64,000 nt of DNA, from positions 36,090 through 100,089 of the IMG/VR virus record IMGVR_UViG_3300043395_002349. The stretch is one strand, 5' to 3'. Origin of the DNA: a virus. The position numbers were made by a program, and so were the translations under genes. Under the pieces are notes generated by a model. It worked only from the letters and a program-made list of their open reading frames with translations, was not told where the DNA came from and did not search any database. Positions 35,904 to 58,561 of the stretch are shown here, in pieces. How positions within the stretch are numbered: position 1 is the first letter of the stretch; the number at the start of each line of letters is the position of its first letter.

Positions 35904-36521
35904 TTAAACGATTTCGTATCCTTGATTAAAATAATCTTTAATTTTCTTCTTTTTCACCATAACAGTTTCTTCACCTTTTTTCATCATTACTTTTTCATTT
36001 CTACCCATATGTTCAAATGAAGATTTAATAAGGGTTTCAGTGTATTGTCTATCTCTAATAGTTAAACCATTTAAATGGTCAATTTCATGTTGTACACAAA
36101 CTGCTTCCAATAAATCTAAATCGGAAAATAATTCATTAATATCTTTATGACCTCTTTTTTCAGTTCCAAATTCTAATACTTCTGGAAAATTATCTGCCTT
36201 AACCTTTACACCAAATGCTCTAACCGTTTTAATTGGTTTTCTCATAGTTTTTGGTAAAGATAAACATCCTTCAAAATAAACTAAACTTTCTTCGGTATAA
36301 GAAACAATTTCAGGATTAACCAAAATTAATGGTTCATCTTTTACGTTTACTACACAAATTCTTTTATTTAGTCCAATTTGGTTTGCACTCATTCCCAACC
36401 CTTTATGTTCAACTACGGATGTTAATAAAGCTGCTGTTGCTAATTCTTGTTCTTCTTTTGTAAATCTTGAAACTGGAATTGGTTGTTTCAATATTTTAGT
36501 GTCTGTAATTATTTTGATCAT
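35904..36521 (-). CDS. def: Peptide deformylase
   Basis: 205 residues. The three deformylase motifs are intact: GLGMSANQIG (motif 1, GxGxAxxQ type with Ser), EGCLSLP (motif 2, zinc-ligand Cys) and QHEIDHLNG (motif 3, HExxH). A C-terminal ~45-residue basic extension (KSSFEHMGRNEKVMMKKGEE and following) is longer than in minimal phage enzymes. Deformylases remove the N-formyl group from nascent proteins; phage copies are thought to support translation of viral proteins. The gene opens a short operon with the membrane protein and the sigma factor. Confidence 0.95.
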   Translation of the reverse strand: MIKIITDTKILKQPIPVSRFTKEEQELATAALLTSVVEHKGLGMSANQIGLNKRICVVNVKDEPLILVNPEIVSYTEESLVYFEGCLSLPKTMRKPIKTVRAFGVKVKADNFPEVLEFGTEKRGHKDINELFSDLDLLEAVCVQHEIDHLNGLTIRDRQYTETLIKSSFEHMGRNEKVMMKKGEETVMVKKKKIKDYFNQGYEIV

Positions 36522-42430: not shown

Positions 42431-43267
42431 TTATAAATATTTTTTGTTTAAAAAATTAATAATTCCATCTGCCCAAATTCGATGAGCAAAAATACCAGGA
42501 TGCCCATCACATGATATATCTATACCAACATCATCTGTTATTTGCATTTTATTATTACCCGCTAATGTAGTTATACAATCATATATTTTATTATTATATT
42601 CAATTTTTAATAAATGATTTTCAAAAAAATTTGGAAAATAATTGTTGAAATTAATATGATTTGTAAAATAGTGTAAACCACCTGATACAAAAAATTGAAT
42701 ATTGTTTTGTTTTAAAAATGAAATTAAACCCATAAAAGAATAACATACATTTTGTTCGTATTTTATTGGATTGATAAAATATTCTGAATATTCTTTTATT
42801 AAATTTCTTGTTTTGTTTCTATATTCTTCATCCATTTGAGGTCCATAAATCCAATCTAATGTAGTTTGTGTATCATTTATTTTTCCTGTATCTTTATAAT
42901 CAACATTTGCAACTAAATATCGGTTGTATTTGTTAGAATAAACATCTAATCTATTAATTGCACCCTGTATCTCAAAGAAGAATATTGTTTTTTGAGATTT
43001 TTTTATTCCGTTTTTTGTAATATATTCATATGCTTTTCTTACAATTCTTTCAGAACCACTGCCACTCTTAGCTTCATTGATTATTTTTATATTTGGAAAT
43101 TTTTTTTGTATTAATGCCGGATAACTTACATCTTTTTCCGAATTATATTCAATATTATATTTTTCTTTATATGCCAATTTAACATTAATTGTCCTTTCTT
43201 CTAATCCACCACCTTCGGTAAAAGAACATCCATTAAAATATAAAGTATTAAACTTATCCTGCCACAT
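42431..43267 (-). CDS. SGNH/GDSL hydrolase-like protein
   Basis: 278 residues. FNGCSFTEGGG (12-22) replaces the GDS nucleophile block, KSGSGSERIVRKA (about 62-74) matches the second block, and CDGHPGIFAHRIWADGI near the C-terminus supplies a D-x-H pair. The same pattern occurs in the 47013-47783 protein. Members of this fold are esterases or acyltransferases acting on lipids or acylated sugars. It overlaps the upstream DNA methyltransferase by 14 nt. Confidence 0.65.
   Translation of the reverse strand: MWQDKFNTLYFNGCSFTEGGGLEERTINVKLAYKEKYNIEYNSEKDVSYPALIQKKFPNIKIINEAKSGSGSERIVRKAYEYITKNGIKKSQKTIFFFEIQGAINRLDVYSNKYNRYLVANVDYKDTGKINDTQTTLDWIYGPQMDEEYRNKTRNLIKEYSEYFINPIKYEQNVCYSFMGLISFLKQNNIQFFVSGGLHYFTNHINFNNYFPNFFENHLLKIEYNNKIYDCITTLAGNNKMQITDDVGIDISCDGHPGIFAHRIWADGIINFLNKKYL
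42432..42439 (-). promoter_or_regulatory. TATTTATA element upstream of the 60-residue gene
   Basis: Coding strand ATATTTATAAAATATG, 4 nt from the ATG, inside the 3' end of the upstream SGNH-like gene. It is the only perfect copy in the 33.2-56.8 kb stretch outside obvious virion genes. Confidence 0.35.
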
Positions 43268-44171
43268 AATTAAAAAATTGTTGTAATTTATTTTCTTGTT
43301 CTAATTCATCAGGTGAGCAATACTTTGGAATATCATAATCTCCTGGTTTTCTAAACACTAAAAGATATTCATGTATTTTAGATGTATAACGTTTAGATGC
43401 AGTTTTACCAATTTGTAATGCTGCAAATGGTGAAATGTTTTCTAATATAACTATATCATGTTGTAAGAAACCATGCTTCTTAAATGAGTTGATAACATCA
43501 CCATGGAAATTATGAAATCCCTCATTAGTTCTCATATCACCAACAACCCAACATGCAAATGCACCACTTTTTAATACTCTAAAACAATTACCAATACAAA
43601 CATCTATTTTACTCATAAATGGTTCGTATTTTGGTTCATCACTTAATTGACCAGGAACGGATTCGTATTTTTCTAAATTAAAATAAGGTGGACAAGTAAA
43701 AATCAAATCTGCACTTTTATCCGATATTTCTTCCATTAATGTTCCATCACCATTTATAATATGTGGTTTCATACCAACACCTTCAAAATGATTATGTACT
43801 CTTTCATAGGTTTTTGGTGAAATTTCGAATCCAGTATAATCTCTACCCAATTTTGTTGCAACATATGCTCGTGTCACTCTACCTGCAAAAGGGTCTATTA
43901 TTTTACTACCTTTTAAACTCCAAAACTTTATTACATTTTCGGCTAACCCAGCGTGAAATTCTGAGAAAGAGTAATCCGGTAAATATTCAGTATTATCACC
44001 TCTTCTAACTTCATTTAGACCATCGTTTAGATATGCATCTTTCCAATTAATTTTACTTTCTTTCGTAGGTCTATAAATTGATAATGGTAACCAACCAAAT
44101 TGGTCTTTAATCTTTACATCCGTTCTTAGCGGCAATACTTGTGAGTATTCTATTTTTGTTCCACGTTTCAT
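43254..44171 (-). CDS. DNA (adenine-N6 or cytosine-N4) methyltransferase
   Basis: 305 residues. SAM motif I IIDPFAGRVTR (91-101) precedes the catalytic motif TCPPYF (159-164); YTGFEIS and FRVLKSGAF are further family segments. Phages use such enzymes to hide from restriction or to time events. No cognate nuclease is adjacent. It is the first gene after the Hsp20 terminator, so it probably has its own promoter in the 50-nt gap. Confidence 0.85.
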   Translation of the reverse strand: MKRGTKIEYSQVLPLRTDVKIKDQFGWLPLSIYRPTKESKINWKDAYLNDGLNEVRRGDNTEYLPDYSFSEFHAGLAENVIKFWSLKGSKIIDPFAGRVTRAYVATKLGRDYTGFEISPKTYERVHNHFEGVGMKPHIINGDGTLMEEISDKSADLIFTCPPYFNLEKYESVPGQLSDEPKYEPFMSKIDVCIGNCFRVLKSGAFACWVVGDMRTNEGFHNFHGDVINSFKKHGFLQHDIVILENISPFAALQIGKTASKRYTSKIHEYLLVFRKPGDYDIPKYCSPDELEQENKLQQFFNYVAG

Positions 44172-45400: not shown

Positions 45401-46042
45401 TTATAGTTTAAAAAATTTATCTGCGTTTTTTATTTTACTAATTCTGTTTTCTGCAATTTTACAAGTACTCTCAATTATCTCACTACCAATATATTTTCTA
45501 TCGTTTTCTACACATACGATTGCCGTAGTACCACTACCCATAAAAGGGTCAAACACTATTTGTCCTTTTTTAGTATATGAGTTAATAAATTGTTTTACAA
45601 TATTAGGTGAAAAGTTATATGTGTACTCTGGTGTTGCAGGTACAAATTTTTCACTAAATACATCAGGTAAAAGTGGATGTTTTGTTGCGTTTCTATCAAA
45701 TGTTAAAATAAATGTATATCCGTGTCGGTACATATCAATAGTATCTTCCTTTTTTACCCATAATTTTTGTGATTTTAACGTCCAACCTGCATTATTCATT
45801 AAATCACAAATGAGTATATGTTTTTGTATAACTGTTCCTTCCGCTTTTCTATCAGAAACAAATATAGTAACTACATTTCCTTTTGGATTAAATTTTGCAA
45901 TTCTTTGGTCTAAGAAATCAACGTATGGTGTTATGTTTTTAGTATCTGCACCTATTTCATCAAAATCAGGTGGAGATGTAATAATATAATCGTACTCTAA
46001 ATTACGATTAAGTGTTTCTAAACAATCTTCATTATAAATCAT
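45401..46042 (-). CDS. DNA methyltransferase, beta-class, with SPPD in the catalytic motif
   Basis: 213 residues. The catalytic motif IV comes first (ITSPPDF, 21-27) and SAM motif I last (FDPFMGSGTTAIV, about 168-180), the beta-class order of N4/N6 aminomethyltransferases. The usual aromatic residue of (S/T/D)PP(Y/W/F) is replaced by Asp, followed by Phe. Either the Phe has taken over the aromatic role or activity has changed. It overlaps the next upstream gene by 4 nt. Confidence 0.8.
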   Translation of the reverse strand: MIYNEDCLETLNRNLEYDYIITSPPDFDEIGADTKNITPYVDFLDQRIAKFNPKGNVVTIFVSDRKAEGTVIQKHILICDLMNNAGWTLKSQKLWVKKEDTIDMYRHGYTFILTFDRNATKHPLLPDVFSEKFVPATPEYTYNFSPNIVKQFINSYTKKGQIVFDPFMGSGTTAIVCVENDRKYIGSEIIESTCKIAENRISKIKNADKFFKL

Positions 46043-47012: not shown

Positions 47013-47783
47013 TTATATTTCCAAAAATGAATAATGTTTTTTTAAGTGTTTATATAACTTATTGGAATACAATGAATTATGCAATGGTCCTGGATGCCCT
47101 AAGTCTGCCCCATAATCTATAAAATTATCATAATCACCATCAAATCTATTTTCATCAATAAAATTATTATCTAATCTAAACCCATTCCATAAAAAAGGTA
47201 TATTTTTGTCTTTTAAAAAATATGTTATAAGAAGGTGTGTTCTATACCAATTATTAAAATCATTATATTCATTTTGTAATCTAGTATTTAATTCGTGTAT
47301 GTATCTCCCCTCCTCCGTTTCTTGCATAAATCCCCATTTTATACCCGGTATATAAGGTTCTATTCCACCCTCTTTTGAATACAATTCTCTCCTGTGTGGG
47401 TATGTGTACATAATTAATACTAAATCAGGTTTTACTTCATCAAAATATGTAAGTAAACATCTACTTATAAAATCATTACTTCTACCGGCTGTTCCAAAAT
47501 TTAAATTAACCCCATTTTTTATTAATTTTGAAATTTGTGCCGGCCATGTTTCATCGTCATTAACACCAACACCTTCTGTAAATGAACATCCAATTGACAT
47601 TATTTTAAATCCTTCTTTTTTTATACTATCACCTCTAAATCCCAATTCATTATAAGTGTAAGTACATTTTCCCGAATTATCAGAACCCGATGAATTAAAT
47701 GTATTATTAATTCTATTTGATAATTGAAATTTATATGATGATATTTCAAATGTATCTTTTTTCCAATAATTTAATATTTTCAT
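47013..47783 (-). CDS. SGNH/GDSL hydrolase-like protein
   Basis: 256 residues. IGCSFTEGVGVNDDETWP (about 68-85) is the nucleophile block with its usual following W-P, FGTAGRSNDFISR the glycine block, and ADLGHPGPLHN near the C-terminus the D-x-x-H-type block. It is a clearer family member than the 36578 gene. It is the last gene of the oxygenase/sulfotransferase operon, 3 nt after an oxygenase stop codon. It may add or remove an acyl group on the same product. Confidence 0.7.
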   Translation of the reverse strand: MKILNYWKKDTFEISSYKFQLSNRINNTFNSSGSDNSGKCTYTYNELGFRGDSIKKEGFKIMSIGCSFTEGVGVNDDETWPAQISKLIKNGVNLNFGTAGRSNDFISRCLLTYFDEVKPDLVLIMYTYPHRRELYSKEGGIEPYIPGIKWGFMQETEEGRYIHELNTRLQNEYNDFNNWYRTHLLITYFLKDKNIPFLWNGFRLDNNFIDENRFDGDYDNFIDYGADLGHPGPLHNSLYSNKLYKHLKKHYSFLEI

Positions 47784-47786
47784 AAT

Positions 47787-48290
47787 TTAAATTAATTTAT
47801 TTATAGTATTATTTTCTAAATGAAAATGTTGCAAAAACCATATTAATGAATATCTGTTTCCTTTTGTTATTTTAGTGATTTCATGATTTAATTTTACATC
47901 AAAAATATATGTATTACCAATTTCTTTTTTTAAAATAATTTCCGTTTTATCATAGATTTTAAATTCGCCACCATTAAAATCATCATTAAGTAAAACACCA
48001 ACTGAATATATTCTTTTATCTCTTATATCGTTGTGTACTCCAAAATAATCCCCCTCACTATATATGTGAAAATGAATTTGTTTTTTTAATGTTTTTATTT
48101 TTATAGATGTGTTTTGTTCAAAAAAATTTTTTAATTTTTCAAAAATCCAGTTTGTATCATTGTTTACTAAGATTGTGTACGATTTATATTTTCTATCACC
48201 ACTATCCCAATATTGATTATTTTTTTTAACTAAATTAATTATTTTTTGACATTCATCTTTATTAAATAAGATGGTTTGATGTAAATTCAT
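47787..48290 (-). CDS. 2-oxoglutarate/Fe(II)-dependent oxygenase (P4H-like)
   Basis: 167 residues. HND (H86, D88), NHEIT (H136) and GNRYSL (R146) give the full iron and co-substrate set, with GGEF before the distal histidine. I keep the ATG at 48290 although it overlaps the sulfotransferase gene by 29 nt, because the residues after it (a short strand, then KDECQKI) are the normal start of this family. The C-terminus ends NKLI, a weak form of the tail seen in the island. Confidence 0.8.
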   Translation of the reverse strand: MNLHQTILFNKDECQKIINLVKKNNQYWDSGDRKYKSYTILVNNDTNWIFEKLKNFFEQNTSIKIKTLKKQIHFHIYSEGDYFGVHNDIRDKRIYSVGVLLNDDFNGGEFKIYDKTEIILKKEIGNTYIFDVKLNHEITKITKGNRYSLIWFLQHFHLENNTINKLI

Positions 48291-48819
48291 TTTTTATTTC
48301 AATTCTATATTTTTTACCAATTGGAAAAGTTAATTCTTTTAATTCGGGTATATCAACATATTCAATTAATTTGCTTATACCATTTCTATAATACAATTCT
48401 TCATATGAAATAATAAATCCATTTCTTTTTTCATAAAATTTTTTAAATTCTTTTTTTAAATTTTGAAAACTATTTTTTCCTTCTTCATCATAATATTTTT
48501 CTTTGTTTGTCCAAAAACCATGCCAATTTTTTGTTTTCTGTGCATGTAACCAAGATTCTATTTGTAATTCTTCGTTTTCTCGATAAAGATATATTACCTT
48601 TTCTGAAATTTTAAATAGGTTTTCAAAATCCAGTCCTGAATGAAAATCTTCTTTAATTAATAAATGTTTTGTTTTGTATTTGTATGGAAATTCTTTTGTA
48701 TACCATTTTGAATTTATATTTGATGGTAAAAATAAAGTTGTAAAATCTTTATTCATAGAAAACCAAGTTGTTAAATTTGATGAACCGGTTCTAGGTTCTG
48801 CCAATATTAATATTACCAT
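48262..48819 (-). CDS. Sulfotransferase-like protein
   Basis: 185 residues. EPRTGSSNLTTW (8-19) is a typical 5'-phosphosulfate-binding loop (PRTGSS), and IYLYRENEELQIESWLHA (about 76-93) resembles the 3'-phosphate-binding strand and helix (R..n). The fold transfers sulfate from PAPS to hydroxyl or phenol groups. It starts immediately next to the stop of the upstream oxygenase. PAPS would come from host sulfur assimilation. Sequence alone cannot distinguish carbohydrate from tyrosine acceptors. Confidence 0.75.
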   Translation of the reverse strand: MVILILAEPRTGSSNLTTWFSMNKDFTTLFLPSNINSKWYTKEFPYKYKTKHLLIKEDFHSGLDFENLFKISEKVIYLYRENEELQIESWLHAQKTKNWHGFWTNKEKYYDEEGKNSFQNLKKEFKKFYEKRNGFIISYEELYYRNGISKLIEYVDIPELKELTFPIGKKYRIEIKNEFTSNHLI

Positions 48820-49341
48820 TTAAACTAATGTTTTATTTTTTTTTTCTTTTAATACTTTAAATGCTATTGTAATTCGCATATCTATCATTTCTTTTCTAGG
48901 TGCCATACCTCTATGCCAGATATTTCCATTAAAAAATACGGCACTATTTGGTATTGGTATATTACATATCAATTCATTATTGATTTTAAAATATGTTTCA
49001 CCTATTATTGATACATCATTATTTTTTGTAAAATAATACAAAAATGTATGTTCCAATTCATTATTATTATCTTGATGCCACATTCCATCTTGTCCTAATG
49101 TTTGACCATTTGCATATACTCTATCTAATGAATACTCCGTACCAATTATTTGTTGGATTTTGCCAAAAAATTCTTTTGTTATGAATTCAAATTCATTTAA
49201 ATCTGCATACCAAAAAAGAGATTTAGAATATGAGTTTAAACTACTAGATGCACCAAAAATCCACTTTACTTTATTTGATAAAATGTATTTAAGTTTATCG
49301 TATTCATCTTTATTTAAAATATTTTCATATTTTTCAATCAT
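48820..49341 (-). CDS. 2-oxoglutarate/Fe(II)-dependent oxygenase
   Basis: 173 residues. MWHQDNN (H89, D91), IWHRG (H143) and DMRITIAF (R156) form the active site. The distal histidine is followed by RG, as in the phytanoyl-like branch, and the Arg lies 13 residues later rather than 10. The C-terminus reads KNKTLV, one of the recurrent island tails. The stop codon runs into the ATG of the next gene, and its own ATG overlaps the stop of the gene before. Confidence 0.8.
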   Translation of the reverse strand: MIEKYENILNKDEYDKLKYILSNKVKWIFGASSSLNSYSKSLFWYADLNEFEFITKEFFGKIQQIIGTEYSLDRVYANGQTLGQDGMWHQDNNNELEHTFLYYFTKNNDVSIIGETYFKINNELICNIPIPNSAVFFNGNIWHRGMAPRKEMIDMRITIAFKVLKEKKNKTLV

Positions 49342-49832
49342 AATAATGTTGTTTGCTTTTTATCATTTTTAGTTGTTAATTTAAAAAATGAAACTAATGA
49401 ATATCTATTTCCTTTTTTTACTTTTGTTATTCTATGCCATAATTTATCATCCATAATTAGTGATAAATTTATTTCTGGATTAATTGTTACTTTATTATTA
49501 TTTTGTGAAATATATTCAAAATTACCACCTTCAAAATTTGTATTAAAATATGTAATTATTGTTAAATGTGAATTATCGTAATGAAATGTATCTGCGTTTT
49601 CGTCATTATTAGTTACTTTATTTATCCACATAGGCTGAAGCTCATACCTATCACCAAATGTTTGTTTAACATAATTGCTTATTTTATTTTTAAAATCTAA
49701 TAATTCATCTGTTTTAATTGTTTGTGTATTGTATATTTGAATAAAATCTGCAACAAAATTATTACATAAATTATTTAAGTAATCAATATCTTTATCCGAT
49801 AAGAAACCATATACTTTTATTAAATCAATCAT
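49338..49832 (-). CDS. 2-oxoglutarate/Fe(II)-dependent oxygenase (P4H-like)
   Basis: 164 residues. FHYDNSH (H84, D86), LWHRIT (H133) and GNRYSLVSFF (R143) complete the site, with EGGNFEY as the typical GGEF-like strand. It is closely similar in layout to the proteins at 47787, 51616 and 52138. The C-terminus ends KQTTLL and the stop/start junction is TTATTATGA, so the next ATG overlaps the stop. Confidence 0.85.
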   Translation of the reverse strand: MIDLIKVYGFLSDKDIDYLNNLCNNFVADFIQIYNTQTIKTDELLDFKNKISNYVKQTFGDRYELQPMWINKVTNNDENADTFHYDNSHLTIITYFNTNFEGGNFEYISQNNNKVTINPEINLSLIMDDKLWHRITKVKKGNRYSLVSFFKLTTKNDKKQTTLL

Positions 49833-50431
49833 AATAAACTATTTTCTTTTTTTGAAAATTCAAATCCTACATTTCCTGCTATTACTATTCTATCTAAATT
49901 AGCATTTGGAGCCGGCATTGGTGCATGTAATAAATCAGCCTGCATTATAATTAAATCATCTTCTTCTGGCCTTACCCAATATTCTTTTTTATTCTTACCC
50001 TTTATAAATAATACACCATCATTTTCATTCATAATATCTGGCATTTGAATATAATAAACATAAGTGTAAGTTGGAATAAAACTTTTGTTTTTTTCATTTA
50101 TTTCCGTATGTGAATGATATTTGTCCATAAAAATCCCATTATGAAAATTTAATTGAACAGGATTTTTAGCACTCACAATATTAATCCACTCTTCTGTTTG
50201 TATTGTATTAAATGGGATTTTTATAGTTGATTCGTACAATGCTTTGCACATATCAATTCCCAAATTGCAAATTTTATTTAATAGAATATCTTTTTTTGGA
50301 ATTGAAATAGAATCAAATTTATTTTTTGAATCAATCTTTTTAATTGAATCTATAATTAATTTTTTACTATCTAATAGATTTAATTTTGTTTTCCAAATAT
50401 ATGTTTCCGTGTCAAAGTAAATTTGCTCCAT
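49829..50431 (-). CDS. 2-oxoglutarate/Fe(II)-dependent oxygenase (HxH/E variant)
   Basis: 200 residues from the ATG at 50431, which overlaps the preceding stop (TAATG); an upstream TTG is less likely. YHSHTE (H106, H108, E110) stands where HxD is expected, LLHAP gives H169 and DRIVIAGNV gives R181. This pattern, with YVYYIQMP in the core, matches a group of phage oxygenases and is shared with the protein at 56889. Ends ENSLL. Confidence 0.7.
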   Translation of the reverse strand: MEQIYFDTETYIWKTKLNLLDSKKLIIDSIKKIDSKNKFDSISIPKKDILLNKICNLGIDMCKALYESTIKIPFNTIQTEEWINIVSAKNPVQLNFHNGIFMDKYHSHTEINEKNKSFIPTYTYVYYIQMPDIMNENDGVLFIKGKNKKEYWVRPEEDDLIIMQADLLHAPMPAPNANLDRIVIAGNVGFEFSKKENSLL

Positions 50432-50967
50432 TATAACAAACTTTTTTCTTTTTTGACTGATATCCAATCTACCAATAAATGTATTCTATCTTCATCTCCA
50501 TCATTAATTACACCATGTACTTTTTCCGTATTATTGATTTCCCATAATTCACCTTCTTTTAAATTTTTAGTTTCTATATCCACACTAAAAAAACATTTAT
50601 CGTTTGTAATAATAGGAATGTGTATTCTGTGTGATATTTCAAAACTTTCATGAACATCGGTATGTGTTTTAATTGCTTTGCCTGCTGGTAAATTTATTAA
50701 TAATGCATTGAATAAATAACCATCACCAATTTGTTTTTTAAAAATTTCAGATATTATTTCTAAATCATCTTTAAATAATTCATATTCTTCTCTGTATATA
50801 GCCTTTTTTCTTTCTTCATCAAAAATAATAGGTACTGATTTTGTGTGTATATGAACTCCTTCTGACATTTTTTGTCTGTATTTCCATGACTCCCAATCTA
50901 ATTTAGAAAGCTTTTTCTTTATTTTAGAAACATCTATTTTACCATAATATTTAAAGTTCATATTCAT
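50431..50967 (-). CDS. Aspartyl/asparaginyl beta-hydroxylase-like oxygenase
   Basis: 178 residues. KTHTDVHESF (H102, D104), SHRIHIPI (H113, R114), EKVHGVINDG (H151) and DRIHLLVDW (R161) reproduce the Asp/Asn beta-hydroxylase family, in which the metal is held by two histidines and the RIH segment binds co-substrate. Eukaryotic relatives hydroxylate Asp/Asn in EGF domains; bacterial ones act on Asp in peptides. It overlaps the sulfotransferase gene by 17 nt and ends EKSLL. Confidence 0.8.
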   Translation of the reverse strand: MNMNFKYYGKIDVSKIKKKLSKLDWESWKYRQKMSEGVHIHTKSVPIIFDEERKKAIYREEYELFKDDLEIISEIFKKQIGDGYLFNALLINLPAGKAIKTHTDVHESFEISHRIHIPIITNDKCFFSVDIETKNLKEGELWEINNTEKVHGVINDGDEDRIHLLVDWISVKKEKSLL

Positions 50968-51616
50968 ATAGTTTAAAATCGTTTATATACATATCATATA
51001 TTTTTTTACCAAACTGATTTTTAAAGGATTCGTAATTTACTATATTCTTTTCACCCATATTTGGTCTTATATTTTTTAGCTCAACTAACTCTATGTTTAT
51101 ATATTCCGATAATGGTTTTATATCTTTTGTTATTTCTTCAAATTTAAAAATTTTTATTTCTTTTTTTGATTCATTCCACCAATTCTGCTCCCACCAAAAT
51201 CGCAAACCACCCCAATTTTTATTGTGAAATTTTATTTGTTTATAAGTTAATCCACCATAAAATTTTTCATAAAAGTTATCCATATTTGTTTTGGATATAT
51301 TTTTATATGTTTCTACCTTTTCTATCATTTGTTCTAGTGATATATCTTCCCTTCCCATTATTTCTATTTGATGTATATAAGCTGAAATAAATCTATCAAA
51401 TGGATTTCTAACAAATTGTATTACTTTATATTCATCTATATTTTGTATATTATATAAATCAATTATTTCATCTAACGTTAAATGTGTTATTGGGTGTTTT
51501 ACATTTTTTAATGGAGTATTAAATACAACACCAATTTCTTCCAAACTTCTTATAATAGAATTTGATGCTGTTTTTGGTGGTGTTAGTAATATTAATTTGT
51601 GTTTATTAGAAACCAT
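50951..51616 (-). CDS. Sulfotransferase family protein
   Basis: 221 residues. TPPKTASNSI (12-21) is the 5'-phosphosulfate loop (PKTASTS type), and FVRNPFDRFISAY (about 68-80) is the classic 3'-phosphate-binding motif (RNPxDRxxSxY) of PAPS sulfotransferases. Together they are strong evidence. The ATG overlaps the oxygenase stop by 1 nt. Carbohydrate and tyrosylprotein sulfotransferases share these motifs; the acceptor is unknown. Unlike its neighbours it ends YEYEL, without the recurrent tail. Confidence 0.88.
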   Translation of the reverse strand: MVSNKHKLILLTPPKTASNSIIRSLEEIGVVFNTPLKNVKHPITHLTLDEIIDLYNIQNIDEYKVIQFVRNPFDRFISAYIHQIEIMGREDISLEQMIEKVETYKNISKTNMDNFYEKFYGGLTYKQIKFHNKNWGGLRFWWEQNWWNESKKEIKIFKFEEITKDIKPLSEYINIELVELKNIRPNMGEKNIVNYESFKNQFGKKIYDMYINDFKLYEYEL

Positions 51617-52134
51617 TATAATAGACTGTTAATATTTTTAATACTTTTTTTGATAAAAATAACTAAAACCTCTCTATTCCCACTTTCAACAGGCGTAACA
51701 CTATGCGTTAAATCTGCATCAAATTCTATCATATTACCAAATTTTAATTCAATGTGTTTTCCATCTAAATAAAAGTTCCCCCCTTCAAATCCATTACTTA
51801 GTATCATTACACATGTCCTTATTGATGAATGAGTATCGGTATGTTCATGTGCACCCTGACCAATTCCATAATTTACATAATGTACATCTGCTATATATTC
51901 TTGTTTTATATCGTACTTTACATATTTTTTAACAATGTCCATCAATTGTTTATTATGTAAATCACACCAAAAATTTTCTGAATAATCAAATAAAAAAGAA
52001 TTATAATAAGTTTTATCGACTCGTTTGTTGAATTTGTTTTCTAAATCATCACCTGAATTTTCATTTCCTATTTTATACACTTTTTTTATTTCTTCAATAT
52101 CATTTTCTTTTATATCGTAAATGTTGTATATCAT
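51616..52134 (-). CDS. 2-oxoglutarate/Fe(II)-dependent oxygenase (P4H-like)
   Basis: 172 residues. HEHTDTH (H98, D100), LTHSVTP (H144) and GNREVLVIF (R154) give the active site; EGGNFYLDG precedes the distal histidine. An additional histidine-rich patch (AHEHTDTHSS) surrounds the metal site. C-terminal INSLL and the TAATG junction with the sulfotransferase follow the island pattern. Confidence 0.85.
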   Translation of the reverse strand: MIYNIYDIKENDIEEIKKVYKIGNENSGDDLENKFNKRVDKTYYNSFLFDYSENFWCDLHNKQLMDIVKKYVKYDIKQEYIADVHYVNYGIGQGAHEHTDTHSSIRTCVMILSNGFEGGNFYLDGKHIELKFGNMIEFDADLTHSVTPVESGNREVLVIFIKKSIKNINSLL

Positions 52135-52137
52135 ATA

Positions 52138-52641
52138 TTACAATAATGTTTTTTGTAATTTAGTATTTTTATTTTCAAAAAAACATACAAAACTAAATCT
52201 GTTACCATTTGTTACTGGTAATACTCTATGCCATACATTATCAGTCATAATTACTGCTGAATTTATTTTTGGTAAATATTTTTTTTGTATTCCATTTTTA
52301 TCAATATATTCCAATTCACCACCATCAAAATTATCATTTAGATATATTACAATTGATACCTCTGCTATATCTTTATGAAAGTTATCATTTTTATTAGTAG
52401 TAGTATTAATATAGTTTATCCATGTTGATTTTGATGGAATTAATATATATTCATCACCCAATTCATTTAGTAATATTGTATTTACACTTTTAATAAATTC
52501 TGGAATTAATTTTTGATTAATTTCTATTCTATTATAGAAGTTATTAAAATTAGGTTTATCTGTTATTACAAAATTGTTGCATTCGTTTTGTAATATTTTC
52601 AGCTCTTCATTATTTAATATGTTATCGACTATTTTTATCAT
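52138..52641 (-). CDS. 2-oxoglutarate/Fe(II)-dependent oxygenase (P4H-like)
   Basis: 167 residues. FHKDIAEV (H89, D91), VWHRVLPV (H138) and GNRFSFVCFF (R148) give the full site; DGGELEY precedes it. Its layout closely follows the protein at 49338, suggesting a duplicated pair. It overlaps the radical SAM stop codon by 4 nt and ends LQKTLL. Confidence 0.85.
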   Translation of the reverse strand: MIKIVDNILNNEELKILQNECNNFVITDKPNFNNFYNRIEINQKLIPEFIKSVNTILLNELGDEYILIPSKSTWINYINTTTNKNDNFHKDIAEVSIVIYLNDNFDGGELEYIDKNGIQKKYLPKINSAVIMTDNVWHRVLPVTNGNRFSFVCFFENKNTKLQKTLL

Positions 52642-53681
52642 AAAAGTTTATTCTTTGTTTCTATAAAGTATTTTTCGACAATATCATTCATATTATGAAT
52701 TGCTTTAAATTTTAAATTAATTTTTTTTAATTCTTTTAAAAATAAATTAAATTCAGGATGATTCTCATCCCAAATTTGTTTTATCATAAATTGACTATCA
52801 CTATATGTTCCCCAATTAGTTATTTTATTAAAAAATACATCAACCTTATTATTAAATATCTTCATCATTAAATTATAAAAATCTTCCATTTGTGTATAGT
52901 TTGTATCTTGAACAACAAATGATACTTTTTTATTTCCTATTTTTATTTTAGATATAAACTCTAAATTTTTTATTAAGGTATTCCAATTTCCACCACGTCT
53001 TATTAATTTATAAGTTTCTTCATTGGCTGCATCTATACTAATTTCTATTGTTTTTATTAAGTTGTGTATGTGTGATAAATCGTTCCAAAGTTTTTCTGTT
53101 AATAATAATCCATTAGTGTGTATGTGTATATTTTTTAAATTTTTAAATTTTGTTTTATCAAAATTTAAAAGTAATTTTCTTATAGATTTAGAGGCAAATG
53201 GGTCGGCTGTGCCTGATAAGTACAATAATGCAATATCTTTTCCAAATTTTTCGGTGATTTTATCTATCATATCATCTATAAAAATGATATCATCTTCATT
53301 TGCCATTATGTTTTCTGTTCTGCAGGATGGGCATGATAGATTACAACTTCTATCAAATGCAAGATTTATGTTGACTGGAGTTTTATAATCTTCTTCTTTG
53401 AAATCCGATTTATTTATAAAACAAGAATGTTTTTTTCCCGTTGTTAATAATTCGGATAAATAAGGACATTTTGTTTTTGAACAATATGAGTATGAACCAT
53501 CTAAAATTGATTCTTTTATTTTTTTATACTCTTCCGTATTCCATGCGTTTTCTATATCTTCTAAAGATGAAAGTTTAACTGGAAGCCAAGACGGGCAACA
53601 GCTATATACAGCGTGCCTATGTGCTTCCATATAAACAAATGGAGTGATGCATACAAATTGTTTTAATATATCGTTATTCAT
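52638..53681 (-). CDS. Radical SAM enzyme with N-terminal SPASM-like cysteine region
   Basis: 347 residues. CNLSCPSCR (113-121) is the CxxxCxxC cluster motif of radical SAM enzymes; LYLSGTADPF and SIDAANEETY match later SAM-binding strands. Before it, cysteines at 11, 28, 29, 67, 72 and 87 form a SPASM-like set (SCCPSW, then CSKTKCP), normally found at the C-terminus and used for a second Fe-S cluster in peptide-modifying enzymes. It lies in the middle of the oxygenase/sulfotransferase operon and ends TKNKLL. A peptide substrate is plausible. Confidence 0.88.
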   Translation of the reverse strand: MNNDILKQFVCITPFVYMEAHRHAVYSCCPSWLPVKLSSLEDIENAWNTEEYKKIKESILDGSYSYCSKTKCPYLSELLTTGKKHSCFINKSDFKEEDYKTPVNINLAFDRSCNLSCPSCRTENIMANEDDIIFIDDMIDKITEKFGKDIALLYLSGTADPFASKSIRKLLLNFDKTKFKNLKNIHIHTNGLLLTEKLWNDLSHIHNLIKTIEISIDAANEETYKLIRRGGNWNTLIKNLEFISKIKIGNKKVSFVVQDTNYTQMEDFYNLMMKIFNNKVDVFFNKITNWGTYSDSQFMIKQIWDENHPEFNLFLKELKKINLKFKAIHNMNDIVEKYFIETKNKLL

Positions 53682-54370
53682 TATAATAATTTATTTTTTA
53701 TAAATGGTTTTTCAAACCGTTCCCAAATAAAATTTTTTAATGTATCATCTATAATTATTTTGTTATTTTCTGGTCTGTTTTTATTTTTTTTATCTAACGA
53801 TTGTTTTATTTTTTTACCATATTTTGTTTCTAAAAAATTATAAAAAGAGTTTATATTTTTTAAATCAAATTCATATGTACAACGTTCCCCATCTTTCCAA
53901 TAGTTTTCAGGTAAAAACATTGAAATATGACCTACAAATTCTAAATTATCTGTTTTTACTAATTCTTTATAAATTGTTTCCCAATTTTTCCATTTTTCTT
54001 TTGTAACAAATCCTGCAATTAATTTATTTGAAAATTGATAATCAAAATGTTTATATATAAAATTATTATCAATATCCTTATATTCTATAATAGTTTCTAA
54101 ATTATGATTATATTGTGTACCATCAAAAAAATATTGTAAAGCACTCATCCATCTATCAAACCAATTTCTTGTAATACAAATCGTTTCTTTAATTCCAAAT
54201 TCATTGTATAGATGTGATTTTCGTATATGAAAATGTTTATCTTCATTTTCTAATAACAAACTTGCTTTTTTTATTTCTAATTCAGAATTTAATAAATCAT
54301 ACTCGATAGTAGTACTTGCACATCTTGGTACGGAAATCCAAATCAAGTCATTGTTTATCAATAATGCCAT
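53681..54370 (-). CDS. Sulfotransferase-like protein
   Basis: 229 residues. WISVPRCASTTIEY (11-24) is a phosphosulfate loop of the PRCAST type, and CITRNWFDRWMSAL (about 84-97) the 3'-phosphate segment (RNxxDRxxS). Both match membrane-independent sulfotransferase families. The protein is divergent from the other two in the window. Ends IKNKLL; stop and next ATG overlap as TAATG. Confidence 0.82.
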   Translation of the reverse strand: MALLINNDLIWISVPRCASTTIEYDLLNSELEIKKASLLLENEDKHFHIRKSHLYNEFGIKETICITRNWFDRWMSALQYFFDGTQYNHNLETIIEYKDIDNNFIYKHFDYQFSNKLIAGFVTKEKWKNWETIYKELVKTDNLEFVGHISMFLPENYWKDGERCTYEFDLKNINSFYNFLETKYGKKIKQSLDKKNKNRPENNKIIIDDTLKNFIWERFEKPFIKNKLL

Positions 54371-54373
54371 ATA

Positions 54374-54919
54374 CTAATATAAGGATTTTTTTTGAATTTT
54401 CAAAAAAGGCCAACAATTTAATGAATATCTTATACCGTCTGTTATTTCGTTTATTTGGTGTTCTATATTAGAATCAAATATAAAAACACTGCCTATACTT
54501 TTTTCTATTGTATGTTCTATACCATCTATTTTATATACAATATCACCATCTACATAATCATCATTTAATTGAAATATGAATGTTAGTGTTGCACCCAAGT
54601 TCTTTATTGCATGACTATCTGAATGATATTTTAAAAAATCCGTCTTTATATATTTGTTAAATGCAAAATAATCTATTTTTGTGTAAATAGAATTTTTATA
54701 CACATTTAGACCGTTTATAAAATCTAAAATTTTGTTTTCTAAATTTGGGAAATTATTTGGTGGTATAAAAGTTAAATGTCTTTTATTTATTGTATTGTTT
54801 TGTATTGACCCATTTTTACTATACGTTTCCGATTGTTGAAGTTCTAATGAATTTCCAAATAAAATAATTTCCTCACACTCTTTTTGTGTAAGAAAATTTT
54901 TTTTAAATAACGTAAACAT
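54374..54919 (-). CDS. 2-oxoglutarate/Fe(II)-dependent oxygenase (P4H-like)
   Basis: 181 residues. KYHSDSH (H99, D101), IEHQINE (H154) and GIRYSLNCW (R164) give the site; VDGDIVY stands in the GGEL position. The ATG overlaps the stop of the small cysteine-rich protein by 1 nt. C-terminus KKSLY, a variant of the recurrent tail. Confidence 0.85.
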   Translation of the reverse strand: MFTLFKKNFLTQKECEEIILFGNSLELQQSETYSKNGSIQNNTINKRHLTFIPPNNFPNLENKILDFINGLNVYKNSIYTKIDYFAFNKYIKTDFLKYHSDSHAIKNLGATLTFIFQLNDDYVDGDIVYKIDGIEHTIEKSIGSVFIFDSNIEHQINEITDGIRYSLNCWPFLKIQKKSLY

Positions 54920-55221
54920 TATAAAAGTGTTTTAGAACCTTTAGGTTTATCTAATATATCAGTTGCGTTTTCATCTATTTCTTGCCATTTATTTAATTGA
55001 CAAGCATTATATTTACGTGAATATATTTTTTTGTTTAAAGGACAGTTACAATCATTACAATATGAATCATTTTTAAAAAATCTATTAGGTCTAAAATGTT
55101 CACAACCTAAACAAATTTCATATCTTTTTTGTGCTAATTCTAATTGTCCAGGTCGTTTCTTTTCATCATCTGTAAATGAATCATACCAGGACAAAATTAT
55201 TTCCTTAATATCTATACCCAT
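54919..55221 (-). CDS. Small cysteine-rich (zinc-ribbon-like) protein
   Basis: 100 residues. Residues 37-73 hold six cysteines: CLGC, then CNDCNC and a later C before QLNKW. The pattern C-x2-C-x13-C-x2-C-x-C-x13-C suggests a zinc or Fe-S site. Rest of the protein is helical and charged. It ends GSKTLL, so a structurally unrelated protein carries the same tail as the oxygenases. It could be a partner, a metal donor or a substrate of the neighbouring enzymes. Confidence 0.75.
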   Translation of the reverse strand: MGIDIKEIILSWYDSFTDDEKKRPGQLELAQKRYEICLGCEHFRPNRFFKNDSYCNDCNCPLNKKIYSRKYNACQLNKWQEIDENATDILDKPKGSKTLL

Positions 55222-55245
55222 AACTTATTTATTTAACACTAATTA

Positions 55246-55323
55246 TTACGAATTTGCTGTGATAATTAATCCACCAATTTGCGTAAGTATAGTATTCATT
55301 GTATCTTTTTCTGCTGCTGTCAT
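55246..55323 (-). CDS. Possible 25-residue peptide gene
   Basis: A short frame lies in the 120-nt gap between the cysteine-rich protein and the Hint-like protein. It has an ATG after AAAAAATAAAAAA, a good start context for this genome, and ends in TAA. The peptide begins MTAAEKDTMN and ends GGLIITANS, with a double glycine near the middle. It contains no Cys, Pro or Tyr. It may be a real small gene in the modification operon or chance. Confidence 0.35.
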   Translation of the reverse strand: MTAAEKDTMNTILTQIGGLIITANS

Positions 55324-55341
55324 TTTTTTATTTTTTATAGG

Positions 55342-56844
55342 TTATACACAATAATATTGGCAAATATTTACTGGTGAATTTTTACAACATTGTGCCATCG
55401 GGCAACATCCATTTACATATCCAGGTTGATACGGAGGACATTGTTTTGAATAACAAGCAATATTGTGTTCAATAGTTGCATATGATGTATTTGAATCCGA
55501 ACCTGTTTTTGTTAAGAAATAGTGTGTTCTGGAAACTGTTATATACCAACCATTAAAAAATTCTTTACTAGTAGATATACTTGCAATTTCTTTTAATTCA
55601 TATTGTAGTTCACCATTTGTAGTGTCTACCATTATAATTTTATCACCAACTACCATTTCATGTAAATAAATAAATTTAACATTATTATCTTTTAAACTTA
55701 AATAACTTGAAATACCAGTATCATTCCAATCCGAACCATCTGTAAATGTTAAATTAAATCTACTTGTAAATGTAGATACTTTCACTTTTCCCAATACTTC
55801 ATTTGTTGAATAAGTAGAACCACTTACCAATTGTTCAAAGTTAATATTGAAATTTTCTTGCTCATCAATTGGATTTGTAATTTGTCCATTTGTATCAATA
55901 TCAATTGTTTTTAAAACATCACCAACTTCTAATTCTAATGCAGTTTTAAATGTTCCATCTGCCAATTCCACTAAATCATCATCTTCTAATTTTGGTAGGC
56001 CACCGATTTGATTTTTAGAAACAATATATGACCATTTATTATCTGAACTTATTTCAAATGTACTATTATCGTATACAGGAATTACTGGAACTTCCATTTG
56101 TGTAAATTTAGTATATGCACCTACCTTAATTGATTCTAATGATGGGGGATATAATAAATTTATACTTCTAATTACCTGAATATGGTTTTGATAAAGATTG
56201 CTTTCATTAAAATGATATTCCATTAAAAAATAATCTTTATTTACAAAATTTGCTATTACACTATTTAATTCGTCTTGTGAAGATACCTTAAATAATTTTG
56301 GATATACATTTATATCGTAGAAAGGTAAAACCGCTTTTAATATAAAGTTTGGATTGTTACCATTATCAGGTATAGATGTAATATGATTTACAATAGCATT
56401 AGTTTCATCCATATATGCAAATTGTGAACCAAACTCTGTATCTTTAATTAGATTAAGAAATCCTACTTTATTTTTACAATATTCTTCATCAACAATTGCA
56501 GTTGTATCATATGCACTTCTAATAATAAGAACATCTGCAGAATCTTCTACATATGGAACTGTAATTGAATCTTCACCTACTTTATGATTTTCATATGCAA
56601 CACCTATGTTATTTAATTCGGCCTCTAATACGACACCAAATTCTTTATTTAAATTACCAATGTAATGAACTTTGGTAAAAGAGTTGGATTGAATAAATGC
56701 GATAAGTTCTGCTAAATCAAATATATCGTTTTTATTTTCTAATGTAATATCACCATCTATTCCTAATGCGGTATTTATTTCAACCGGTACTAATTGACCG
56801 GCTTTATTATACATAAAATCTGTACCTAAAAGTATTGTTCTCAT
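55342..56844 (-). CDS. Large protein with Hint-like region and 8-cysteine C-terminal tail
   Basis: 500 residues. The first ~260 (LLGTDFMYNKAGQLVPVEIN..., later FILKAVLPFY and FLMEYHF) resemble a protein I recall from T4-like marine phages, loosely ATP-grasp-like; this is uncertain. Residues ~280-460 look like a Hint (intein/hedgehog) fold: LVELADGTFKTALELEVGD, then EMVVGDKIIMV and SRTHYFLT, closing in EHN. No nucleophilic Cys/Ser is seen at the expected block A position, so autoprocessing is doubtful. The last 37 residues hold eight Cys plus several Pro and Tyr (CPPYQPGYVNGCCPMAQCC). Two overlapping TATTTATA copies precede it. Confidence 0.7.
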   Translation of the reverse strand: MRTILLGTDFMYNKAGQLVPVEINTALGIDGDITLENKNDIFDLAELIAFIQSNSFTKVHYIGNLNKEFGVVLEAELNNIGVAYENHKVGEDSITVPYVEDSADVLIIRSAYDTTAIVDEEYCKNKVGFLNLIKDTEFGSQFAYMDETNAIVNHITSIPDNGNNPNFILKAVLPFYDINVYPKLFKVSSQDELNSVIANFVNKDYFLMEYHFNESNLYQNHIQVIRSINLLYPPSLESIKVGAYTKFTQMEVPVIPVYDNSTFEISSDNKWSYIVSKNQIGGLPKLEDDDLVELADGTFKTALELEVGDVLKTIDIDTNGQITNPIDEQENFNINFEQLVSGSTYSTNEVLGKVKVSTFTSRFNLTFTDGSDWNDTGISSYLSLKDNNVKFIYLHEMVVGDKIIMVDTTNGELQYELKEIASISTSKEFFNGWYITVSRTHYFLTKTGSDSNTSYATIEHNIACYSKQCPPYQPGYVNGCCPMAQCCKNSPVNICQYYCV

Positions 56845-56863
56845 AATTTGTTTTGTTTACCTC

Positions 56864-56877
56864 TATAAATATAAATA
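56864..56877 (-). promoter_or_regulatory. Tandem TATTTATA elements upstream of the Hint-like gene
   Basis: Coding strand ATATTTATATTTATAG contains two overlapping copies, 19 and 25 nt from the ATG at 56844. It marks a likely separate transcript start inside the modification island. Confidence 0.45.
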
Positions 56878-56888
56878 TCTTTAATTAT

Positions 56889-57497
56889 TTATAAAATTGT
56901 TTTTGTTCTTTTTTTATAACTTTTTTCTAAATCTAATATACAATAGTTTCCTGCTAATACTATTCTTTCTTTATCTGAACCTAAATTTATTTCAGGTCTA
57001 TGTGGCAAATCAGCCGAAAAAAATATTAAGGAACCTTCCATTGGTTTTATTTTATGTTCTATTTGAGTATCATCTGTTCTAAATAAAATTCTACCCGAAT
57101 TTTCACCTTCACCTAAATTTGTAGGTAGTTGAATGTAAAAAACCCAAGTATATTGGTTTTCTAAATAAAGTTCATCATTTAAAGTATGAATATGATATCC
57201 CGAATGTTTATTTTTTTCATCACTAATATAACACCAATATTTTAAATGATAAGGGGTATTAAATTCATAACCATATATTTCACAAAATTTTTCCCAAATA
57301 ATATTTTTTAATTTTGATAAAGATTCGGTTTGTATTAATATATCAGATTGTATACCTGGTTCCTTTTCTGTGCCTTTTTCAAATGTCCGTTTACTTACAT
57401 CGACATTAAATTTAATTTCTTTAATAAGTTGTTCTTTATTATATTCAATATCTTTAATGATATTAATTTTATATTTTTCTGAAAGTTGTAATTCCAT
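56889..57497 (-). CDS. 2-oxoglutarate/Fe(II)-dependent oxygenase (HxH variant)
   Basis: 202 residues. GYHIHTLND (H102, H104), LPHRPEI (H166) and KERIVLAGN (R178) parallel the protein at 49829; FYIQLP in the core is shared as well. This makes the two a subfamily in which a histidine or later acidic residue may replace the Asp ligand. It ends RTKTIL although the next gene starts 45 nt later, so the tail is kept without start-codon overlap. Confidence 0.72.
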   Translation of the reverse strand: MELQLSEKYKINIIKDIEYNKEQLIKEIKFNVDVSKRTFEKGTEKEPGIQSDILIQTESLSKLKNIIWEKFCEIYGYEFNTPYHLKYWCYISDEKNKHSGYHIHTLNDELYLENQYTWVFYIQLPTNLGEGENSGRILFRTDDTQIEHKIKPMEGSLIFFSADLPHRPEINLGSDKERIVLAGNYCILDLEKSYKKRTKTIL

Positions 57498-58022
57498 TTA
57501 AAATACCTTTTTTTCTTTGGTTAAAAAACATTGTAATGAAATTCTTATATCAGCATTTAAATTTATAGTGGTAACACAATGTTTTGTTCCACCTGTTAAA
57601 AATACGCCTGTGTTTTTATCTGGTTTTATTGCCTTTATTTCATCATCTTCTTCATACATAAAATACCCACCCCAATCACTTTCCCATTTTTCATTTAAAT
57701 AAACTGTAAGTGCTCCTTTATATAAACCATCATTGTGCCATGTAATATAACTTAATTTAGGCCAAAAATGTATTTTTAAACCCGTTACAAAAAATGGTAT
57801 TTGTAATTCTATTTCTTTTTTAAGTAGATTAAATATTTCACTATCTTTATCTGAAAAATCATATATTACAACCGGTGTACTACTATTAATTAAATATTCA
57901 TCCCAAAATGCAGTGCTTGTATATAAATTACTATTTTTGTCCGTTTTGATTTTTTTAATATAATCAATTAGTTTAGTATATGTTTCATCCGAAAAAAATG
58001 AATTAAATTTAGTAACACTCAT
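57498..58022 (-). CDS. 2-oxoglutarate/Fe(II)-dependent oxygenase (P4H-like)
   Basis: 174 residues. TWHNDGL (H96, D98), TKHCVTT (H148) and ADIRISLQCF (R160) give the site; WGGYFMY is the GGEF-like strand. Cys follows the distal histidine. The stop runs into the next ATG (TTTTAAATGG). Ends EKKVF, a weaker form of the tail. Confidence 0.82.
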   Translation of the reverse strand: MSVTKFNSFFSDETYTKLIDYIKKIKTDKNSNLYTSTAFWDEYLINSSTPVVIYDFSDKDSEIFNLLKKEIELQIPFFVTGLKIHFWPKLSYITWHNDGLYKGALTVYLNEKWESDWGGYFMYEEDDEIKAIKPDKNTGVFLTGGTKHCVTTINLNADIRISLQCFLTKEKKVF

Positions 58023-58561
58023 TAAAATAACGTTTTTTTATTTTTTAATTTATCTTTTTTATACATTAAATAAAGTTGAACAACACTTTCATTTTCACCA
58101 CAAACCAATGTATCTCTCCAATGTTCAAATTTATTAGAATCAATAATAACCAACGCATCACCAACTTTTATATCATATCCAATTTGGTTACCATCAATTA
58201 AAAAATATAAAGGCCATTCCTTATTTGTTTTTTGTAAGCATACTGAAATGGTTATGTTTATTGAATCTTTATCTTTATGTTTTTCTAAATGAGAACCATT
58301 TCTATATTCTCTAATATATGCATTAAAATTTTCAATTCGTATTTCTTTATCGTTTATTATATTTTTAACAACAGGTTTTAATTTTTCTACATATTCATCA
58401 AAAAATTTAACTAATCCAAATCCATAAGAATTTGCACCACTATCTACAATTGGAATATCTAAATCAATATTGTATCTATTTCTTTTTTTTTCTTCGTAAA
58501 ATTTATCTAATAATATTTTACATTCATCTACCGAAACTATGTTTTTTATATATGAAACCAT
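58022..58561 (-). CDS. 2-oxoglutarate/Fe(II)-dependent oxygenase, HWR subfamily
   Basis: 179 residues. EKHKDKD (H95, D97) and FEHWRDT (H147) hold iron, but the usual Arg about ten residues after the distal histidine is missing; the region reads GENESVVQLYLMYK. I recall a subfamily with HWR...G...Q-x-FLHY in this place, so co-substrate binding may differ. Ends KNKKTLF and overlaps the next gene's ATG as TAATG. It is the first oxygenase gene of the island in reading order. Confidence 0.7.
   Translation of the reverse strand: MVSYIKNIVSVDECKILLDKFYEEKKRNRYNIDLDIPIVDSGANSYGFGLVKFFDEYVEKLKPVVKNIINDKEIRIENFNAYIREYRNGSHLEKHKDKDSINITISVCLQKTNKEWPLYFLIDGNQIGYDIKVGDALVIIDSNKFEHWRDTLVCGENESVVQLYLMYKKDKLKNKKTLF

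Follow-up and report, generated by a model that had tools for sequence, protein, structure and literature searches.

We analysed a 64,000-nucleotide window of viral DNA (IMG/VR record IMGVR_UViG_3300043395_002349; G000:36090-100089 of a linear contig of 100,089 bases), in which a block of abutting or overlapping open reading frames (ORFs), all on the minus strand, extends from 47013 to 58561. This island encodes eleven 2-oxoglutarate (2OG)-Fe(II) oxygenases, three sulfotransferase-like proteins, a radical S-adenosylmethionine (SAM) enzyme and a zinc-ribbon-like protein of 100 amino acids (aa), arranged around a 500-aa protein that we call the hub (55342..56844). An earlier note on the same DNA had located these tightly packed ORFs correctly and read them as one dedicated modification pathway, a reading supported by the recurrence of the gene set, and of its linkage, in 189 viral loci. 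Two features had escaped it: a C-terminal tag common to the enzymes, and the make-up of the hub from ATP-grasp and Hint domains. With both features in view, we consider it probable, judging from sequence, that the island encodes a peptide-maturation pathway resembling those of ribosomally synthesized and post-translationally modified peptides (RiPPs), in which tagged enzymes would dock on the hub and decorate its Cys-rich C-terminal core, which Hint cleavage would then free.

In its terminase this phage shares 55% identity with Flavobacterium phage immuto (MW353177, T4-like), which suggests that it belongs among the T4-like phages, probably those of Flavobacteriia. Although they fall in the same phage group, immuto, as annotated, has neither a hub nor an oxygenase island. 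The density of oxygenase genes in the island is exceptional, far above chance and above relatives, since nine other contigs of the phage group have only 0-2 PF13640 genes each; outside the island, the source contig carries only three further oxygenases.

Domain structure of the hub

Residues 1-270 of the hub are ATP-grasp-like, residues ~285-461 form a Hint domain ending in T-I-E-H460-N461, and the last 39 residues (462-500; 55342..55461 with the stop codon), which directly follow the His-Asn pair and include 8 Cys, make up the core that is predicted to be released (IACYSKQCPPYQPGYVNGCCPMAQCCKNSPVNICQYYCV). We modelled the hub with AlphaFold2 together with 29 relatives (predicted local distance difference test score 79.8, predicted template modelling score 0.77). 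In Foldseek comparisons the middle of the model matched the Hint fold (TvoVMA intein, BIL2 and hedgehog, E about 3e-7 to 1e-6), and the N-terminal part matched glutathione-synthetase-type ATP-grasp enzymes (1m0t, 3e-5; 5oev, 2e-4), with a weak match to LysX/ArgX (5k2m, 0.06). A fold search of BFVD gave matches essentially to the Hint part, and a PDB profile search with the hub gave no significant matches, the non-significant ones being consistent with the motifs.

The domain order of the ATP-grasp part is circularly permuted, and its E-x-N metal motif sits N-terminally, an arrangement shared with the permuted enzyme of eukaryotic type. Fold and motif are thus what the hub has in common with glutathione synthetase and LysX/ArgX, but it lacks a significant sequence match to them. 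That the ATP-grasp domain is active is plausible, because E22, N24, R109, D113, K170 and R226 are kept in 99-100% of 88 hub representatives; E209 is kept in 94%. In the same alignment His460-Asn461 is invariant (100%), and the core starts directly after it.

A C-terminal tag shared by unrelated enzymes

Oxygenases, sulfotransferases, the radical SAM enzyme and the 100-aa Cys protein, although unrelated, end alike, approximately in K-x-[TS]-L-[LI]-stop. Endings within the island include NKTLV, QTTLL, ENSLL, EKSLL, INSLL, QKTLL, NKLL, SKTLL, TKTIL, KKTLF and INKLI, and position -3 favours Thr or Ser. We captured this signal by modelling the seven C-terminal residues position by position, training with one homologous family left out each time and scoring against a background, cleaned of cassette genes, of non-island genes from the loci, from phage immuto and from the source phage. 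Of 160 island proteins, 128 passed the 95th percentile of the background, where 8 would be expected, and 96 passed the 99th; the area under the curve was 0.95-1.0 for most families, with lower values for SGNH, GNAT and SET proteins. With training confined to other phages, the model placed 13 of the window island's 17 non-hub proteins beyond the 99th percentile, and 5 of 85 genes of the same phage outside the island beyond the 95th. In loci added later, the tag was present in 329 of 645 genes less than 4 kb from a hub, against 4 of 97 beyond 7.5 kb.

The tag is an amino-acid signal and not a DNA or RNA signal, since Leu codon usage in the tails equals that of the gene bodies and K-T-L-[LI] is encoded in 43 ways among 151 genes. 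This codon test rules out the tail as an artefact of ribosome binding or gene overlap. Tagged members occur in 39 families across the islands, a few small ones perhaps by chance; they include tryptophan-halogenase-type flavin enzymes (PF04820, 5e-93), FkbM and CmcI-like methyltransferases, SET proteins, GT90 and short-chain dehydrogenases. Two further tagged families have no recognised domain: one of 26 members of about 420 aa (L222:5131-6411 and relatives), present in all 13 islands examined whose hubs bear a Peptidase_S74 (S74) domain, and one of 27 members of about 390 aa (L123:15173-16342 and relatives).

Linkage of the tag to the hub

Related loci were sought over all viral contigs with a DNA pattern that joins the oxygenase motif NR[YF] to K-T-L-L-stop. 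The pattern did not select for a neighbouring hub, and each of the nine loci returned was an island with a homologue of the 55342 protein, tagged oxygenases, sulfotransferases and, mostly, a radical SAM enzyme. Relatives were reached only through this tail-based pattern and alignment scans; single-sequence scans of viral contigs with the hub found none. The 189 loci, some of which overlap on one contig, contain 93 distinct hubs (clusters at 90% identity), and scattered single homologues without linkage, which would have counted against a joint pathway, are not what is seen. The hub sequence was not found in 50,697 phage records, nor in 84,980 bacterial and archaeal species genomes at the sensitivity used, that search being limited by peptide patterns. 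One phage contig of 211 kb (3300042892_005961) has two hub islands with different cores (L111 and L139).

Two island families used as bait brought in 145 loci, of which 28 had no detected hub. Of these, 22 are cassettes that are cut by a contig end or lie near one; in the other six (L211-L214, L218 and L219) the homologues are untagged. L219 (viral contig 3300035670_000291, 9696-11235) is a natural empty site, in which the backbone genes that flank the window's island are adjacent, hub and enzymes are absent, and a relative of the 100-aa Cys protein (Cys100), retained between the backbone genes, is untagged and ends in ILKDTL. Likewise untagged are the three oxygenase and two radical SAM genes that the source phage carries outside the island, and the hub-less halogenases and oxygenases of the cultured Pelagibacter phage HTVC008M, Prochlorococcus phage P-SSM2 and Synechococcus phage S-H38. 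In HTVC008M, five oxygenase genes and a tryptophan halogenase gene lie near the terminase genes (L313; 57442-65157), with no hub and no tag. Linkage of the enzymes to the hub is near universal across loci, and of all the parts only the hub is both a constant companion of the tag and free of it.

These data bear on two other accounts of the tails. The enzymes could be independent auxiliary proteins acting on unrelated small-molecule or glycan substrates, with recombination at gene ends keeping the genes together and copying their tails. Single oxygenases and halogenases do occur without a hub in T4-like marine phages, and cassettes are reshuffled between relatives; but tails that span about ten unrelated folds, whose diverse codons match gene-body usage, are not simply copied DNA, and the linkage to the hub makes this account very improbable. 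Alternatively, the tail could be a degron that times enzyme removal in an otherwise unchanged pathway. The C-terminus of MuA, RRKKAI, is a ClpX-type degron (PMC8138137), and basic residues followed by two hydrophobic ones at the extreme C-terminus loosely resemble it. The preference for Thr or Ser at position -3 is unlike MuA, the tag tracks the hub, and it is missing both from the Cys100 relative in L219, though that protein lies among the same backbone genes, and from similar enzymes of hub-less phages. We therefore regard a degron as unlikely, and continue with the tag as a probable docking signal.

The Cys-rich core

Cys makes up 19% of the core and 0.5% of the hub remainder, and the core diverges faster than the body, with 45-60% identity in comparisons that give 65-84% for the body. 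In 77 of the 93 hub clusters the core, of 25-73 residues, forms the C-terminus, and in all 77 the number of Cys is even (6 in 47 clusters, 8 in 27, 10 in two and 12 in one). Another 13 hubs continue past the core, again with an even Cys number in every case, into an S74 domain with its S-D cleavage motif. One, that of L288, has a second Hint domain after the core, with an intact Cys1 (PF14890, 3e-10), and the other two clusters are built otherwise. Pfam supports the S74 assignment in five of nine members, at 1.3e-5 and above the cut-off in the best case; the alignment to the phi29 neck appendage (3gud) starts at the cleaved Ser, the match alone being weak (0.058). The core is very probably excised, because it is bracketed by the S74 autoprotease in 13 hubs and by the second Hint in L288. 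These three arrangements, with a predicted cut at each core end that is not itself the terminus, provide the best argument that the core would be a product. In one hub variant (L310:8001-9914 and L311, on contigs of 245-311 kb), His-Asn is absent (SVQSNAGVC), the C-terminus is large and Cys/Pro-rich, and the gene is preceded by a tagged Cys100 (NTTLI).

The S74 domain also invites a structural reading, in which the hub would be a virion or tail-fibre component with the core as its displayed tip, and the tag would send enzymes to the assembling virion to modify a structural protein. Elsewhere, S74 domains have an established chaperone function for trimeric tail fibres and spikes. The 13 hub relatives share domain and self-cleavage motif with chaperones such as phi29 gp12 and that of endosialidase, although in these relatives the domain follows a Cys-rich core beside a Hint, and it is absent from the window hub; the island in L132 is directly followed by tail sheath-like genes. 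Against this, 77 of the 93 hubs end with the core and have no S74 domain, cores can be as short as 25 residues, a Hint cut would separate the core from the hub, and the N-terminal part of the hub is an ATP-grasp domain, no known structural domain having been found with Foldseek. The hub as a virion part is thus an unlikely alternative to the hub as a peptide precursor.

As to what the enzymes modify, the earlier note had named a virion protein, a host envelope protein and the Cys/Pro/Tyr-rich tail encoded within the island. The last is by far the best supported of the three, because of its even Cys counts, the invariant His-Asn before it, the bracketing autoprotease modules, and a match between halogenases and Trp-containing cores: of 70 islands whose core contains Trp, 27 have halogenase genes, against none of the 36 islands with Trp-free cores (p=2e-6, uncorrected for relatedness). 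The window island itself has no halogenase. Cores of MHN-type hubs (e.g. L237:3228-4718 and L234:10314-11804) end in x-K-[LIVA] (PKL, NKI, EKA), which bears a faint resemblance to the tail of the enzymes; these ends are perhaps read by the same pocket as the tag, or used by the ATP-grasp domain.

A candidate pathway for peptide maturation

In the pathway that we favour, the hub would act as scaffold and precursor in one. Oxygenases, sulfotransferases, the radical SAM enzyme and the zinc-ribbon protein would be recruited through their common C-terminus (about K-x-[TS/K]-L-[LI]-COOH), whose most likely reader is the hub, given that it co-occurs constantly with the tag and does not bear it. While the core is still part of the hub, the enzymes would modify it by hydroxylation, sulfation or other means. 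The Hint domain, of which only the C-terminal His-Asn is kept, would then cut after Asn through Asn cyclisation, freeing a decorated and probably disulfide-rich peptide of 25-110 residues that might leave the cell at lysis or sit on the virion. A competitor-directed and a receptor-binding role outside the cell are both compatible with the evidence. ATP-grasp relatives activate C-terminal carboxylates, and by analogy the tag may even be used chemically by the ATP-grasp domain.

Several observations weigh against this pathway. The Hint domain has no conserved N-terminal Cys or Ser (Cys1 is missing in two hub alignments), and its block-F His is not conserved, being Asp in about half; only C-terminal cleavage can therefore be argued. 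Two hub variants (L310/L311 and L312) lack His-Asn or the S74 end. An even number of Cys could also reflect metal or thioether pairs, as the cytoplasm would not form disulfides. The association of halogenases with Trp is confounded by hub clade, and within the MHN clade it stands at 25 of 41 against 0 of 5 (p=0.015, relatedness again uncorrected). Finally, untagged island enzymes exist: the sulfotransferase at 50951 in the window, a 156-aa oxygenase subfamily ending in NFWFH, and GNAT proteins.

Relation to known systems

RiPP pathways with enzyme-core fusion precursors are known, borosins among them, and graspetides use ATP-grasp enzymes. Like a RiPP locus, the island has a ribosomal precursor with a conserved 460-aa body and a hypervariable C-terminal core, and its modifying enzymes are co-localised with that precursor across the 189 hub loci; like the fusion RiPPs and graspetides, it joins an enzyme domain, here of ATP-grasp fold, to the core. 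Unlike RiPP loci, it is phage-encoded, its core follows a Hint domain, and its tailoring enzymes bear a common address tag. Pfam and NCBIfam scans of the hub turned up no RiPP recognition element, for which no specific search was made, and no known RiPP maturase family. We describe the system as RiPP-like and do not file it as a RiPP, since its recruitment logic differs and modification and cleavage of the core are predictions.

A-type bacterial intein-like (BIL) domains with His-Asn cleave their own C-terminus via Asn, with no ligation (PMC7765530). The hub shares with them the Hint fold, the conserved C-terminal His-Asn and a variable flank, but differs in the Cys1 and block-F positions discussed above and in its fusion to an ATP-grasp domain and a Cys-rich peptide inside a tailoring island. 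VirX1 of cyanophage Syn10 is a phage flavin halogenase (PMC8407142), as are the halogenases of related islands phage-borne; the cultured-phage halogenases compared here (HTVC008M, P-SSM2 and S-H38, with VirX1 not among them) have neither a tag nor a neighbouring hub.

A literature search for a phage system of Hint, ATP-grasp and Cys-rich parts found no paper describing the combination. The parts are known singly, and we know of no system that combines one short C-terminal tag on dozens of unrelated enzyme families with a predicted self-cleaving precursor whose end is a hypervariable even-Cys peptide. We give roughly even chances to the broader proposition that uncultured phages possess an undescribed form of peptide natural-product assembly, in which swappable, unrelated tailoring enzymes addressed by one tag would act on a self-excising ATP-grasp/Hint/core hub, and hypervariable, disulfide-rich peptides, hydroxylated, sulfated, halogenated or methylated, would be released or displayed during infection. 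If so, phages would produce elaborate peptide natural products, with possible roles in killing or excluding competitors, receptor binding or metal capture. The tag could then be moved to other enzymes to steer them to a substrate, the islands could be mined for halogenases, sulfotransferases and oxygenases that act on peptides, and a concrete substrate hypothesis would be at hand for part of the large number of orphan oxygenases and halogenases in aquatic phages.

Individual island genes and their surroundings

The eleven oxygenase genes proposed in the earlier note hold up: by inspection an HxD/HxH...H metal core is present in all, and Pfam backs nine at E about 0.02 or better. Upstream of the hub (all genes here being on the minus strand) lie an HxH-type enzyme (56889..57497, tail TKTIL), a PF13640 member (57498..58022) whose tail, EKKVF, is below threshold, and an oxygenase-like protein recognised by an HKD...H motif only (58022..58561, KKTLF). 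Downstream follow enzymes with HSD...H...R (54374..54919; PF13661, 0.02; tail KKSLY, below threshold), HKD...H...R (52138..52641, QKTLL) and HTD...H...R (51616..52134, NINSLL), an Asp/Asn beta-hydroxylase-like protein (50431..50967; PF05118, KEKSLL), a second HxH-type enzyme (49829..50467, KENSLL), a protein with an HYD...H...R motif only (49338..49832, KQTTLL), an HQD...H...R enzyme (48820..49341, NKTLV) and a prolyl-4-hydroxylase-like protein (47787..48290; PF13640, TINKLI). Where no family is named, the assignment is by Pfam, except in the two motif-only proteins.

Of the three sulfotransferases proposed, that at 50951..51616 is secure (PF03567, 7e-12) and ends without a tail (EYEL). The other two are suggested by a loop like that for 3′-phosphoadenosine 5′-phosphosulfate (PAPS) and by weak Pfam matches of relatives: 53681..54370 has PRCASTT and the tail KNKLL, with a divergent relative matching PF00685 at 0.006, and 48262..48819 has EPRTGSS and the tail SNHLI, with a relative matching PF13469 at 0.04. 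A PDB profile search with the sulfotransferase family gave no matches. In several relatives (L096:3758-4784, L288:8599-9672 and L312:5801-7984), genes for an adenosine 5′-phosphosulfate (APS) kinase, a nucleotidyltransferase (GRWQxWHKGH) and a DUF2061 protein lie upstream of the hub and likely supply PAPS to the sulfotransferases; no such genes were recognised in the source contig.

The radical SAM enzyme (52638..53681; CNLSCPSC, tail TKNKLL) is confirmed by PF04055 (1e-12). The SPASM-like region once ascribed to it is rejected in favour of the twitch-domain family NF033640, which is closer (3e-16, below the curated cut-off of that family). Cys100 (54919..55221; PHROG 13558, tail GSKTLL) has a CxxC...CxxCxC...C zinc-ribbon-like pattern, and its relatives number more than 505. 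The SGNH/GDSL-like assignment of the protein at the island end (47013..47783) is weak and draws on relatives that match GDSL models; it has no tail here and is tailed in some relatives. As a known anti-phage defence system the island was rejected: among the PADLOC models the one match was to pVip, through a generic radical-SAM similarity (3e-9), and the hub matched none.

Elsewhere on the source contig, at about 9.6-36 kb (L002 and L003), sugar epimerases, glycosyltransferases, SGNH-like proteins, two radical SAM enzymes and three oxygenases, the last five untagged, form a second large set that looks like a glycan pathway. Within the window, genes for a carbamoyltransferase, a peptide deformylase and two DNA methylases lie at 33236-34945, 35904-36521, 43254-44171 and 45401-46042.

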